Part shown: piece by piece, positions 30,361 to 37,117 of the stretch
Layout: each line of letters begins with the position of its first letter
Numbering within the stretch: position 1 is the stretch's first letter
Assembly (NCBI GenBank): GCA_029981855.1
Contig: JARRCS010000016.1
Coordinates: forward strand, 1 to 63,899
DNA from: Halanaerobiales bacterium
GTDB lineage: Bacteria > Bacillota > Halanaerobiia > Halanaerobiales > DTU029
Direction of reading: 5' to 3'
DNA: 63,899 nucleotides
Made by a program: the position numbers and the translations under genes
The notes under the pieces: model-generated
Seen by the model: only the letters and a program-made list of their open reading frames with translations
What the model was told of the DNA's origin: nothing
Database searches by the model: none

Positions 30361-31248
30361 ATGTTAAAGCCACCACTTCAACCCATGTTATTAACCGATT
30401 TAGAGAAGCCCTTTAACTCAGATGATTTTATCTTTGAAATAAAATGGGACGGCTACCGGAGCCTGGTCTTTACCGAAAATAAAGATGTCTATCTCCAGAG
30501 CAGAAATCAAAAGGACCTCACACCCTATTTTCCTGAATTAAAAAAGGTCTATCAACAGGTCAACAGTAAGAGGGCTATCCTTGATGGAGAGATATGCTAT
30601 CTTAATGAAGAAGGCAAACCGGTTTTTGAATTTTTACAGGGCAGAATATGGAAAAAATACGATAAGAAAGAAAAGATAAAATACCCGGTAAGCCTAGTTA
30701 TCTGGGACCTCCTGGCCTTTGAGAATGAAGATATCTATAAATTACCATTAATAGAACGGAAAAAATATCTTAAGGAGATAGTAAGACCAGATAAGAATTT
30801 GTACCTTTCACCCTATATAAAAAGAGAGGGTAAACAATTGTACAAAAGTGCAGCAGCTGAAGGCCTTGAGGGGATTATAGCCAAGAAGATAGACTCACCT
30901 TATGAATTCAAACGGAGTAAATACTGGTATAAAATTAAGATCTGGCAATATACCGAAACCTTTATAGCAGGATATAGCCTGGATAGAACGGGGTTAGTAG
31001 TTGGGAAGTTTAAAGATAACAACTTTATACATATGGGAAAGATAAAACTGGCCCTGAGTAAGGAGGAAGAAGAGGCCCTTTTTAGATTTCTTCCCTCAAT
31101 CAAAATAGAAAAAAGCCCCTTTCAGGAAGAACCGCAAATTTCTAATGTTAACTGGGTAAAGCCTTCCATAAAATGTAGAGTGAGATTTACCGAGATTACC
31201 GGTAATGAAACCTTTCGGCACGGTTATGTGATTAAACTATTAGTTTAA
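30361..31248 (+). CDS. ligD: ATP-dependent DNA ligase (LigD ligase domain, stand-alone)
   Basis: 295 residues. Adenylation motif I EIKWDGYRS with the nucleotide-accepting lysine near residue 28, DGEICYL (motif III), GLEGIIAKK (motif IV), and a C-terminal OB fold. Corresponds to the ligase module of LigD; polymerase and ligase are separate genes here and no 3'-phosphoesterase module was seen. With Ku and the polymerase downstream it forms a bacterial non-homologous end-joining set, typical of spore formers. Confidence 0.9.
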   Translation: MLKPPLQPMLLTDLEKPFNSDDFIFEIKWDGYRSLVFTENKDVYLQSRNQKDLTPYFPELKKVYQQVNSKRAILDGEICYLNEEGKPVFEFLQGRIWKKYDKKEKIKYPVSLVIWDLLAFENEDIYKLPLIERKKYLKEIVRPDKNLYLSPYIKREGKQLYKSAAAEGLEGIIAKKIDSPYEFKRSKYWYKIKIWQYTETFIAGYSLDRTGLVVGKFKDNNFIHMGKIKLALSKEEEEALFRFLPSIKIEKSPFQEEPQISNVNWVKPSIKCRVRFTEITGNETFRHGYVIKLLV

Positions 31249-31269
31249 TAGTTGTTTAAGGAGTTTAAT

Positions 31270-32205
31270 ATGAATAAGATATTAGTAGCTGATATAGAGG
31301 TAAAAATAAGCAATCTGGATAAGGTTTTCTGGCCTAAACATGGTTTTACCAAAGGGGATATGATCAACTATTATATAGAGGTCTATCCCCTGATTAAAAA
31401 TTACCTTAAAGACCGGCCGCTCTCTTTAAAAATTTATCCTGATGGTATCAATGGTAAATCATTTTATCAAAAAAATGCCCCCGATTATGCCCCTGACTGG
31501 CTAACTATCATTCCGATTTACTCCAGTCATAGAAAGGAGGCAATAAACTGGGTTATGGTCAATAAGCTGCAGGATCTTATCTGGGTTGCCAATAGTGCTT
31601 CAATCGAACTCCATGGCTGGTTTTCAACAACCAGAGATCTAGAGAGACCAAACTTTGCAGTCTTTGACCTTGATCCAGGTATTAATACAGGCTTTGAGGA
31701 TACCATTGAAATTGCCCTCTTAATAAAGAAAATACTTGATGAATTAAAACTAATCTCCTTTATTAAAACATCAGGCAAATCAGGCCTTCACATCTATATA
31801 CCACTGAGACCAGTTTACAAATATGAAAAGGTAAAAGGGTTTTTGAAAGCTATTGCCGAGATGGTGATTAAATTAAAACCCGAACTAGCAACTATCGAAT
31901 GGAGAAAAAGGGAACGTCAAGGCAAGATATATATCGACTACCGCCAGAATAGCCGGTCCAAGACAATACCTGCCCCCTATTCCCTCAGACCAACCGAAAA
32001 TGCCACTATCTCTACCCCATTAGAATGGGAAGAGCTTTCAGCAGGTATAAAACCGGAAGATTTTACCCTGGCTAATATAAAAGACCGTCTTGATGAAAAA
32101 GGTGACCTCTGGTCAGACTTATTAAAAATACATCAAAAACTACCCGGTTTTCTTCTTTACCTTCTTTTCTTTCTTCTCTTCACTGGCCTCAACACTGGCC
32201 TTTAA
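31270..32205 (+). CDS. LigD-type primase-polymerase (stand-alone Pol domain)
   Basis: About 311 residues. LigD-Pol landmarks: VFWPKHGFTKGDMINYY at the N-terminus, ELHGWFSTT, catalytic FAVFDLDPG, TSGKSGLHIYIPL and YRQNSRSKTIPAPYSLR. ATG at 31270 is chosen because AAGGAG precedes it. The usual domain ends near DLLKIHQKL; the last 20 or so residues (FLLYLLFFLLF...) are hydrophobic because the frame continues antisense through the Lys-rich end of ku, so the natural stop seems to have been lost or moved. Confidence 0.9.
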   Translation: MNKILVADIEVKISNLDKVFWPKHGFTKGDMINYYIEVYPLIKNYLKDRPLSLKIYPDGINGKSFYQKNAPDYAPDWLTIIPIYSSHRKEAINWVMVNKLQDLIWVANSASIELHGWFSTTRDLERPNFAVFDLDPGINTGFEDTIEIALLIKKILDELKLISFIKTSGKSGLHIYIPLRPVYKYEKVKGFLKAIAEMVIKLKPELATIEWRKRERQGKIYIDYRQNSRSKTIPAPYSLRPTENATISTPLEWEELSAGIKPEDFTLANIKDRLDEKGDLWSDLLKIHQKLPGFLLYLLFFLLFTGLNTGL

Positions 32206-32952
32206 TCTTTCCATCAGATCCAGAACCTTGTTCTCTTCACTAACTGTCTCGGGTATTTCAACCTCCTTGCCTTCGATCTTCTCCCTAATTATCCTCATTA
32301 ATTCCTCCCTATATTCATCAGTATATTTTTCAGGTTTAAATTCAGCAGTCAGGTTATTGACAATCTCAACAGCCAGTTTCTCTTCCTTATCATTGATGCT
32401 TATCTTTTCCCCCATTTCATTGATACCGAGTTCATCTGCGGACCTCACCTCATCGGCAAAATACATAGTTTCCAGGGCTAAAGCATTATTCATTACCCTG
32501 ATAACAGCCAGACTCTCCTTATTTCTAATAGTTATCTTGGTAATAGCCACCTTATTGGTTTTTTCCATGGCCCTTTTTAATAATAGATAGGGTTTCTCTC
32601 CCCCCTCGGCAGGACTTAAATAATATGTTTTAATATAATAGACAGGGTCAATCTCCTCTAGCTTAACAAAGTCAACAATATCGATGGTCTTGGTGGATTT
32701 AACGGGAATATTATCAAAATCCTCATCTCTTAAAACTACAAACTTATTATCTTCATACTCATATCCCTTAACAAGCTCCTGATAATCTACCTCCTGGTCA
32801 CATTTAGGACAGTATCTCTTGGTATCTACCGGGGTATTACATTCTTTATGCAATAATTTAAAACGGATATTCTTTTTACTGGTTGCAGTTGATAGCCTGA
32901 TTGGAATATTGACCAGGCCGAAACTAATGGCCCCCTTCCAGATTGTTCTCAT
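32140..32952 (-). CDS. ku: Ku protein (non-homologous end joining)
   Basis: 270 residues. Begins MRTIWKGAISFGLVNIPIRL, the hallmark of bacterial Ku, with CNTPVDTKRYCPKCDQEV (a small zinc-finger-like insert) and a basic Lys-rich C-terminus. Forms a ring homodimer on DNA ends and recruits LigD. ATG at 32952 follows AGAGGTGA; a GTG 9 bp upstream is less likely. It is convergent with the polymerase gene and overlaps it by 66 bp at the 3' ends. Confidence 0.95.
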   Translation of the reverse strand: MRTIWKGAISFGLVNIPIRLSTATSKKNIRFKLLHKECNTPVDTKRYCPKCDQEVDYQELVKGYEYEDNKFVVLRDEDFDNIPVKSTKTIDIVDFVKLEEIDPVYYIKTYYLSPAEGGEKPYLLLKRAMEKTNKVAITKITIRNKESLAVIRVMNNALALETMYFADEVRSADELGINEMGEKISINDKEEKLAVEIVNNLTAEFKPEKYTDEYREELMRIIREKIEGKEVEIPETVSEENKVLDLMERLKASVEASEEKKEKKVKKKTG

Positions 32953-33088
32953 AAATATCACCTCTTATTCTGGTATTATTCCCAATCAGTAAAATAAATA
33001 TATCTCTTCAAAAATGAAACAGAGCAAAATCTGAATGGATTAGAAAATTATGAAAAGAGTTTTAAAATTAAAACTTTGTTTATTTTAC

Positions 33089-33117
33089 TTTACTAGAGCA
33101 TAAGATTGATATATAAT
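33089..33117 (+). promoter_or_regulatory. Promoter of candidate small RNA
   Basis: TTTACT (33089-33094), 17-bp spacer, TATAAT (33112-33117), with no coding frame behind it. Confidence 0.6.
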
Positions 33118-33123
33118 ATAGAC

Positions 33124-33258
33124 AACCCCTTATAAGATCATAAGTATATAAGAAAAGAGGTTATGATGTCTTGATCATTATAAGGGGATAACATACAATT
33201 TTTTCATTTTTATCCTCCTTTTTTTGGGCCAACTGGAACGCACGGTTGGCCTTTTTTT
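33124..33258 (+). ncRNA. Candidate small regulatory RNA with CCUCC motif
   Basis: Between ku and tRNA-Gly lies a promoter-structure-terminator unit without an ORF. The 5' half folds into a long hairpin: CCCCTTATAAGATCA (33126-33140) pairs with TGATC, one bulged A, then TTATAAGGGG (33172-33187). A single-stranded U-rich stretch follows with TATCCTCC (33211-33218), complementary to Shine-Dalgarno sequences. It ends at a strong terminator: GGCCAAC/GTTGGCC stem (33227-33251) and seven T. The rest of the 604-bp gap (32953-33088, 33259-33556) shows nothing clear. Confidence 0.65.
33227..33258 (+). terminator. Rho-independent terminator of the small RNA
   Basis: Stem GGCCAAC / GTTGGCC with an 11-base loop and TTTTTTT directly after it. 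Confidence 0.85.
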
Positions 33259-33556: not shown

Positions 33557-33632
33557 TGGAGCGGACAACGGGCCTCGAACCCGCGACCTTTGGCTTGGGA
33601 AGCCAACGCTCTACCAACTGAGCTATGTCCGC
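33557..33632 (-). tRNA. tRNA-Gly (CCC)
   Basis: Cloverleaf on the minus strand: acceptor GCGGACA / TGTCCGC, D-arm AGCTCAGTTGGTAGAGC, anticodon arm TTGGC-TTCCCAA-GCCAA (anticodon CCC), T-arm GCGGGTTCGAGGCCCGT, discriminator T, encoded CCA. Confidence 0.95.
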
Positions 33633-35351: not shown

Positions 35352-35374
35352 TATTCCGAACACAATAGAATATA

Positions 35375-35535
35375 CCTCCGTTAGGTGAGGCTTCTATACA
35401 GATATATGCTACTGCCCGGAAACATCGAAAGATGCCAATGGGTTAACAGGTATTACCGGAATAAGGTTTTACCTAATGTAGCTGGATTTAACATAATCCA
35501 AAGCTGTATAGTGCTAAAGCTCAACGAGTGGGGAC
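35375..35535 (+). promoter_or_regulatory. M-box (ykoK) magnesium riboswitch
   Basis: The leader carries the M-box consensus blocks in order: CCTCCGTTAGGTGAGGCTTC, GCTACTGCCCGGAAACATC, AAAGATGCCAATGGGT, TACCTAATGTAGCTGGATTT, and GTGCTAAAGCTCAACGAG. It folds around Mg2+ and, when saturated, favours the terminator at 35563. It precedes the magnesium transporter gene mgtE, the classic M-box target. Confidence 0.95.
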
Positions 35536-35562
35536 CGATCTTCCAGTATGATTAATACTAGA

Positions 35563-35776: not shown

Positions 35777-37117
35777 ATGACAAGAGAATTAATGGAACTT
35801 ATAGACAATAGAAAAATTTCAATTGCAAAGGATCAACTAAAAAAAATGCAGGCAGTAGATATTGCAGAAATAATAAATGAAATGGACGGGAAAAACAGCT
35901 TGCTAACGTTTAGGTTACTCTCAAAAGAAGTGGCAACAGAAACATTTTCATACCTGTCTAGAGACAAACAGGCTGAATTATCTATATTGATTAATGAAAA
36001 TGAACTAAAGGATATTATTGAAGATTTACATTTTGATGATATGATAGATTATCTTGAAGAAATGCCTGCCAACGTAGTAAAAAAGATATTGAAAAATACA
36101 AGCGATGTTGAAAGAAAACTAATAAATCAGTTTCTGAATTACCCGGATAACTCTGCAGGAAGTATTATGACAATAGAATACGTAGATTTAAAAGCTGGTA
36201 TGACAGTTGGTGAGGCACTGAAACATGTACGCAAGACTGCCCCTGATAAAGAAACTATATATACATGCTATGTTATTGATAGTACAAGGATTCTGGAAGG
36301 CATTATATCCTTAAAAAGCCTTGTACTGGCTGATCCACAGAAGAAAGTAAAAGATGTAATGAAAACAAACTTCATAAGTGTTAACACATATAGCGACCAG
36401 GAAGAAGTAGCAGCACTTTTTAAAAAATATGATTTATTATCAGTACCGGTGGTAGACCAGGAAAACAGGCTTGTGGGAATTATTACAATAGACGATATTG
36501 TTGACGTTATAGATGAAGAAAATACTGAAGACTTTCATAAGATGGCTGCAATTCAGCCCTCGGATGAATTGTATCTATCTGCTAGTATTTTTAGCCTTGC
36601 CCGGAAAAGAATACAGTGGCTGCTTATCTTAATGGTGTCTGCCACAATATCAGGCTATATAATCCGTAAATATGAGGCAGTTCTTCAATCGATGGTCGTG
36701 CTTGCAGCCTTTATGCCAATGCTAATGGATACAGGGGGAAACGCGGGGTCTCAGTCCTCTACTCTGGTTATCCGTGGTCTTGCCCTGGGAGAAATTAAGC
36801 TTAAAGATTTTCTTAAAGTTATATGGAAAGAGATAAGGGTTAGCCTGCTTGTAGGTACTGCACTGGGTCTAATTAATTTTATACGGATATTGTATATTGA
36901 AAGTAGTAGTATACAGGTAGCTCTTACCGTATCAATAACCTTAGTAGTAACTATTGTTGTAGCAAAAGTATTAGGTGGAATACTGCCCCTTATAGCCAAG
37001 AGTCTAAAAATCGACCCTGCAATTATGGCCAGCCCACTCATTACAACAATAGTAGATGCCGCAGCCCTAATTACTTACTTTAGAACTGCTTCATGGATAA
37101 TAGGTATGAGCTTTTAA
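35777..37117 (+). CDS. mgtE: Magnesium transporter MgtE
   Basis: 446 residues with the MgtE order: N-terminal superhelical domain (about 1-125), two CBS domains (about 130-250; DVMKTNFISVNTY, VDQENRLVGIITIDDIVDVID), a connecting helix, and five membrane helices from about 280 with PMLMDTGGNAGSQSSTLVIRG, the Mg2+ pore region. Channel closing is controlled by Mg2+ binding to the N/CBS domains; expression is controlled by the M-box upstream. RBS AAGGAGGGGGAG. Confidence 0.96.
   Translation: MTRELMELIDNRKISIAKDQLKKMQAVDIAEIINEMDGKNSLLTFRLLSKEVATETFSYLSRDKQAELSILINENELKDIIEDLHFDDMIDYLEEMPANVVKKILKNTSDVERKLINQFLNYPDNSAGSIMTIEYVDLKAGMTVGEALKHVRKTAPDKETIYTCYVIDSTRILEGIISLKSLVLADPQKKVKDVMKTNFISVNTYSDQEEVAALFKKYDLLSVPVVDQENRLVGIITIDDIVDVIDEENTEDFHKMAAIQPSDELYLSASIFSLARKRIQWLLILMVSATISGYIIRKYEAVLQSMVVLAAFMPMLMDTGGNAGSQSSTLVIRGLALGEIKLKDFLKVIWKEIRVSLLVGTALGLINFIRILYIESSSIQVALTVSITLVVTIVVAKVLGGILPLIAKSLKIDPAIMASPLITTIVDAAALITYFRTASWIIGMSF

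Follow-up and report, generated by a model that had tools for sequence, protein, structure and literature searches.

A multicopy family of putative small RNAs in the Halanaerobiales with a linker complementary to translation initiation regions

Within the 63,899-nucleotide stretch of a Halanaerobiales genome analyzed here (the window), the segment at 33089-33258 on the plus strand is very probably an RNA gene. It belongs to a conserved small RNA (sRNA) family of nine copies, three in the same genome and six in five related genomes, which is a novel family within a known type of RNA and which, as judged from sequence, is probably transcribed. The RNA carries a conserved linker complementary to a whole translation initiation region, namely, the Shine-Dalgarno (SD) sequence, spacer, AUG, and then lysine codons (AAAGGAGGAUAAAAAUGAAAAA). 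We consider it likely that the RNA is a trans-acting sRNA that blocks translation initiation and resembles the csRNAs and LhrC RNAs in action.

Structure and conservation of the RNA gene

The locus is flanked by ku (32140-32961, minus strand; TIGR02772) and a tRNA-Gly gene (33557-33632, minus strand) and has the following parts:

33089..33117 (+): promoter-like element TTTACT-17-TATAAT; 10 of 12 consensus matches
33125..33258 (+): putative sRNA gene, about 134 nt; fold and covariance model match
33126..33140 (+): stem 1, 5' arm, CCCCTTATAAGATCA; fold and conservation
33148..33160 (+): conserved purine-rich stretch within the hairpin, AUAAGAAA(A)GG type; 74% mean identity, nine copies
33161..33171 (+): hypervariable inner loop (part); 24% mean identity, lengths of 11 to 33 nt, nine copies
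33172..33187 (+): stem 1, 3' arm, TGATCATTATAAGGGG; fold and conservation
33184..33191 (+): GGGGATAA, with the 5' arm or TTATCCTCC as alternative partners; invariant in nine copies
33199..33225 (+): anti-initiation segment TTTTTTCATTTTTATCCTCCTTTTTTT; 84% mean identity, nine copies; unpaired probability of 0.97 to 0.98
33226..33258 (+): intrinsic terminator hairpin and U tract; terminator scan and paired changes over nine copies

The start of the RNA (approximately 33122-33125) was estimated from the position of the -10 element, and its end was estimated from the terminator. The promoter-like hexamers, 15-bp bulged hairpin, U-rich linker, and terminator described in the initial annotation were all located at 33089-33258, but the CCUCC that it had placed in a loop sits in the single-stranded linker between two stem-loops. 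Here, UAUCCUCC (TATCCTCC in DNA) occupies 33211-33218 of the U-rich unpaired linker, and the anti-initiation segment contains anti-lysine codons, an anti-AUG at 33205-33207, and an anti-SD at 33214-33218. The predicted fold of 33124-33258 has an energy of -37.7 kcal/mol (z = -4.0; 0 of 200 shuffles were as low), and the linker of the window copy is predicted to be unpaired with a probability of 0.97. Covariance model R1, for which the window is one of the training sequences, matches at 33125-33224 with 104.1 bits. In this AT-rich stretch, promoter-like and terminator-like matches taken alone are not above chance (10 found versus 8.1 in shuffles and 1 found versus 1.1, respectively), and conservation is therefore the real test.

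A DNA search of the window's own genome returned the window and two further copies (E values of 5e-89, 5e-23, and 1e-19), the latter two with 77% and 79% identity, and copies in relatives came to light when 61 genomes were searched at the DNA level. The covariance model built from the nine copies recovered exactly these nine, in 6 of the 38 genomes of the order (E <= 0.05). When the search was widened to 59 genomes of the class (E <= 0.01), convincing copies were confined to the window's own family, where six of eight genomes have them. A pattern scan of genome contigs returned seven stretches, four of them true copies and three plain gene starts in Clostridia; the titles of the copies found in this way place the family in the Halanaerobiales, and a pattern scan of viral contigs returned no copy.

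The class-wide search also gave one extra weak match (41 bits, E = 0.0023) at C15:16130-16229 (locus L263) of G038, a genome from another family of the class. This match has no CCUCC, no correctly placed CAU, and no clear U-tailed terminator and was not counted as a member. G038 carries the same CCCCTTATAA/TTATAAGGGG hairpin without the anti-SD linker, either by chance or as a distant relative.

Across the nine copies, mean pairwise identity falls from 93% and 94% in the 5' and 3' arms of stem 1 through 84% in the anti-initiation segment and 74% in the purine-rich part to 57% in the promoter block (-40..-1), 46% in the terminator block, 24% in the inner loop, and 23% in upstream DNA (-120..-61). 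The first 12 nt of the 5' arm are identical in all six copies that are linked to a kinase gene (see below), and the window copy is closest to the contig-56 copy of the related genome G004 (0.84). In the terminator stem, 6 of 10 pairs have changes on both sides, and all 88 cells are paired (100%). The 10-bp core stem has no compensatory change in the nine copies, with 5 of its 10 pairs invariant, so that what supports it is invariance and energy. Conservation in relatives had been put forward as a check on the RNA gene; nine copies in which the arms and the anti-initiation segment are kept bear it out, and we regard this conservation as the decisive evidence, beyond chance, for the putative RNA gene.

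The pattern of conservation also bears on whether the element is simply a bidirectional terminator shared by convergent genes, with the upstream hairpin incidental. Six copies have their terminator stem just past the end of the kinase gene, where it could serve both genes. However, no protein gene ends close to the window copy on its terminator side (the tRNA-Gly gene is about 300 bp away), the best-kept parts are the stem arms and the linker and not the terminator (46% for its block), and a promoter-like pair (TTTAC[A/T] ... TATAAT-like) stands upstream of every copy (9/9), making this explanation highly unlikely.

An alternative fold of the RNA can be drawn, as GGGGAUAA is able to pair with UUAUCCUCC and is invariant although its AUAA falls outside the stem. 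The predicted probability of the masked state is 0.02 for the window copy and 0.00 and 0.18 for the contig-34 and contig-19 copies of the same genome; among the relatives, it is 0.11 and 0.72 for the two G004 copies, 0.27 for G001, 0.95 for G002, 1.00 for G006, and 0.99 for G005. In the G002, G005, and G006 copies, the anti-SD is predicted to pair with GGGGATAA and to be mostly masked. These figures are energy-model predictions that depend on the chosen transcript ends (with shorter 3' ends, the G002 and G004 contig-56 copies are predicted to be open), and they are not evidence of a switch. We consider it unlikely that the whole family is a bistable switch in which GGGGAUAA would either pair with the 5' CCCCUUAU arm (ON), leaving the anti-initiation strand free, or mask UUAUCCUCC (OFF), with sibling copies set differently. 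Under such a model, the window copy would be nearly always ON and the G002, G005, and G006 copies would be nearly always OFF until freed; if true, a two-component system and a built-in mask would together tune a broad repressor of exported-protein translation. A loop-linker pseudoknot is a feature of RsaOG that is not supported here; duplex energies between the purine segment and CCUCCUUU are mostly no better than those of shuffled loops (13 to 125 of 200 were as low).

Two further features lie near the locus in the window. An M-box magnesium riboswitch (35370-35539, plus strand; RF00380, 156 bits) is found upstream of mgtE (35777-37117, plus strand; TIGR00400, 531 bits). At 30361-32961, two adjacent plus-strand open reading frames that resemble, by eye, the ligase and polymerase parts of LigD are convergent with ku (TIGR02772), whose end they overlap by about 65 bp, in a compact split end-joining locus.

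The linker and its predicted targets

The initial annotation had pointed to an anti-SD motif of the kind that blocks translation. The exposed anti-SD is present, but this description was incomplete, since the complementarity also spans the start codon and the first codons; it likewise did not extend to the multicopy family or to a two-component system as the most frequent neighbor of its members. In all nine copies, the opposite strand of the linker reads AGGAGG, a 5- to 7-nt spacer, ATG, and AAA AA(A/G). This arrangement, with its GGAGG and start, is what would be seen if the element were a small-protein gene on that strand with AAAGGAGG-N5-7-ATGAAAAA as its ribosome site and start, and the three pattern matches in other Clostridia are indeed genuine gene starts. 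However, the nine frames stop after 8 to 30 codons and have largely unrelated sequences, the spacing between the ATG and the CCCC arm differs from copy to copy in steps not divisible by three, and the promoter-like element and the terminator T tract are on the plus strand. Because the frames are short, largely unrelated, and out of step, they do not form a small gene, and we consider this explanation very improbable. A free-standing RNA gene with an exposed anti-SD, as originally proposed, fits the copies, the conservation, and the nonconserved opposite-strand frame.

A different role for the RNA could be to bind a protein or to sponge another RNA, for example, through the purine-rich AUAAGAAAGG, instead of pairing with start regions. 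The purine-rich hairpin segment is conserved, and Hfq is encoded in all seven family genomes examined, but such a role leaves the conserved order of anti-SD, spacer, and anti-AUG in the linker unexplained and seems quite improbable. An anti-initiation action of the RNA is likely.

In the scheme that we infer for transcription, repression, targets, and two-component control, the stretch would be the gene of a trans-acting sRNA in which a stable 5' stem-loop and a 3' terminator stem-loop flank a single-stranded linker. This linker is an antisense copy of the consensus initiation region (SD, spacer, AUG, and lysine codons), and its pairing with mRNAs, most likely those of exported or uptake proteins beginning with MKK, would keep the 30S subunit off and thereby lower the translation of the paired mRNAs. 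The founding copy of the family would apparently have stood next to an OmpR-type regulator and its kinase and given rise to the others by duplication, and this system may control the ancestral copy.

Targets were predicted among 767 genes called from 889,900 bases of the window's own genome with a crude start picker. The duplex energy of the linker with their start regions averages -15.4 kcal/mol versus -13.2 kcal/mol for the reversed linker, and over the 767 genes it is within the range of shuffles (-15.9 to -13.8 kcal/mol, 30 shuffles). Near-matches to the linker complement in the eight family genomes often begin genes that read like those for solute-binding proteins; these suggested the examination of sugar-binding-protein (PF01547) starts, which is therefore not blind. 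PF01547 starts pair better (mean of -20.4 versus -15.4 kcal/mol, p = 9e-5; 14 of 14 own-genome genes versus the 767 sampled, with two of the 14 starts looking misassigned but kept in the mean), and the mean for the 22 genes in the sample that have MKK starts is -20.8 kcal/mol (p = 8e-8). Predicted pairing favors mRNAs beginning AUG-AAA-AAR, such as those for sugar-binding proteins. The PF01547 effect is lost on shuffling the linker to the left of the UCCUCC core, that is, on the anti-AUG side (1, 0, and 0 of 100 were as low for the three own copies), and it is also seen in G001 (16 of 31 genes, the ones for which loci were returned) and G002 (14 of 14), with 0 of 60 shuffles as low in each. 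The same bias is found in G034, which belongs to another family and lacks the RNA (30 of 33 genes; none or one of 60 shuffles was as low), which points to generic start-region sequence and not to coevolution with particular targets.

Taken as a class, signal-peptide-like genes pair hardly better than others (p = 0.02); in the duplex ranking, where mostly other genes are on top, they make up 3 of the first 20 and 7 of the first 40, and no single conserved target was found across these predictions. Target prediction with the CCUCC region, as envisaged in the initial annotation, thus gave better pairing at PF01547 and MKK starts but a bias that is generic: the linker is predicted to fit exported-protein start regions in general, with no specific target established. 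A preference for uptake or envelope mRNAs is a tentative reading of these energies, and one that we lean somewhat against.

The strongest duplex joins the contig-34 paralogue (L044, 6655-6783) with the start of a Phage_holin_4_2 (PF04020) membrane-protein gene (L184, 6439) at -38.1 kcal/mol (z = -4.4 of 767 genes), with an almost continuous 31 predicted pairs, and makes this gene the clearest candidate target in the sample. Its orthologues occur in only two of the seven other family genomes searched, neither with the contig-34 paralogue, and their duplexes, with the various starts and seeds that were used, range from -11.4 to -22.7 kcal/mol.

The two-component neighborhood

In each of the six genomes with the RNA, which span five genera, one copy is convergent with a histidine-kinase gene and lies 6 to 23 bp from the end of that gene. 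At all six loci, the kinase gene follows an OmpR-type regulator gene. The six linked kinases are 54 to 81% identical and contain the Pfam domains HisKA, HATPase_c, HAMP, and ArlS_N, and the regulator contains Response_reg and Trans_reg_C; among the 25 best NCBIfam models listed for each protein, none reached its cutoff. On the far side of the regulator gene, five of the six loci carry one and the same ATP-pyrophosphatase-like gene, which we take for mnmA by its sequence, and G004 has a different gene in that place. No match to the kinase at E <= 1e-60 is present in G003 and G007, the two family genomes without the RNA (G007 is only 72% complete). Among 22 kinase loci examined, a count that leaves out other kinase matches (partial or about 34% identity), 6 have the RNA and 16 do not; all 16 are outside the family and have no such RNA within 700 bp.

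The three copies away from the kinase are the window copy, the contig-34 copy of the same genome, and the contig-56 copy of G004, the latter two having in common a nearby sucrose-phosphorylase-like gene (below the curated cutoff of that model). An AT-rich block like TTTAAAATTAAAACTTTATTT upstream of the -35 element is common to these three copies (window 33061-33085; L044; L039) and is not clearly present in the kinase-linked copies; it is perhaps a different regulator site. Upstream of the copies, we found no conserved regulator box and no clear cre site, and the best place for a CiaR box (NTTAAG-N5-TTTAAG) in the 120 bp upstream of each of the nine copies has between 3 and 5 mismatches at its 11 positions. 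That the kinase-linked copies are under two-component control, as their gene order suggests, falls a little short of an even call.

Comparison with known small RNAs

The initial annotation had recognized no known family in this RNA, and a search of Rfam agrees, as no family matched the stretch at its gathering score. The highest subthreshold scores considered were for ncr1241 (RF02451; 26.8 bits versus 60), rli22 (RF01457; 23.9 versus 80), and RsaOG (RF01775; 22.0 versus 50). RsaOG reached 32.3 bits in a copy from another locus (L057; E = 0.0014 in a 221-bp search), the only match to pass E <= 2 when the eight other copy loci were searched together against Rfam. These matches could mark the RNA as a distant member of a known family (RsaOG/RsaI, rli22/LhrC, or ncr1241), but all scores are far below gathering, were picked from many families and copies, and rest on the hairpin, U/C-rich linker, and terminator, which is a common arrangement among Firmicute sRNAs; we give such membership very little probability. 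Among the matches listed for literature on small RNAs in Halanaerobiales, Halanaerobium, and Halothermothrix, nothing concerned this RNA, and no small RNA from the order came up.

The streptococcal csRNAs are described as CiaRH-dependent siblings, with lengths of 87 to 151 nt in S. pneumoniae (PMC3091779, PMC4507080, PMC8186281), and as posttranscriptional regulators, four of whose six targets are transporter genes (PMC3091779, PMC4507080). As described there, they are like the RNA found here in size, in having an unpaired region with anti-SD and anti-AUG between two stem-loops, in the several similar copies per genome, and in their two-component association (PMC3091779, PMC4507080, PMC8186281). 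The arrangement that serves as a criterion for csRNAs, two stem-loops flanking an unpaired anti-SD and anti-AUG, is present in the window copy. In contrast to the csRNAs, no copy here has a CiaR box (3 mismatches over 11 positions at best), one copy adjoins two-component genes, and neither the sequence nor the bacterial class is theirs. Because the CiaR box is absent, we do not file the sRNA as a csRNA, though it would be csRNA-like in action.

LhrC1-5/rli22 of Listeria are reported to be multicopy and LisRK dependent, and their C/U-rich stretch is predicted to cover the SD sequence in the mRNA for a cell-wall protein (PMC4132741). The likeness extends to the multiple copies, the C/U-rich single strand between two stem-loops, and the two-component association (PMC4132741). 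However, the rli22 score here is 23.9 against a cutoff of 80, and LhrC has three CU-rich motifs (in loop A, the linker, and the terminator loop), whereas the RNA described here exposes a single CCUCC, in the linker. RsaI (RsaOG) of Staphylococcus aureus is described as pairing with the SD of a glucose-uptake mRNA and thereby repressing it (PMC9266662). Going by the Rfam model, it is similar in its hairpin, long U/C-rich linker, and terminator; it differs in that the scores are below the Rfam cutoff of 50 (22.0 here and 32.3 in the best relative) and in that RsaI is under CcpA, with no clear cre site here. AbcR1/2 of rhizobia are described as regulating ABC transporters.

If the proposed scheme is true, these RNAs would form a multicopy anti-initiation sRNA family in halophilic anaerobes that is anchored to a conserved two-component locus, and the covariance model and the syntenic anchor are supplied for finding copies. 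Because the csRNAs and LhrC work on the same principle in other Firmicutes, the family would then point to repeated recruitment, by two-component systems, of sibling RNAs whose sequence mirrors start regions.
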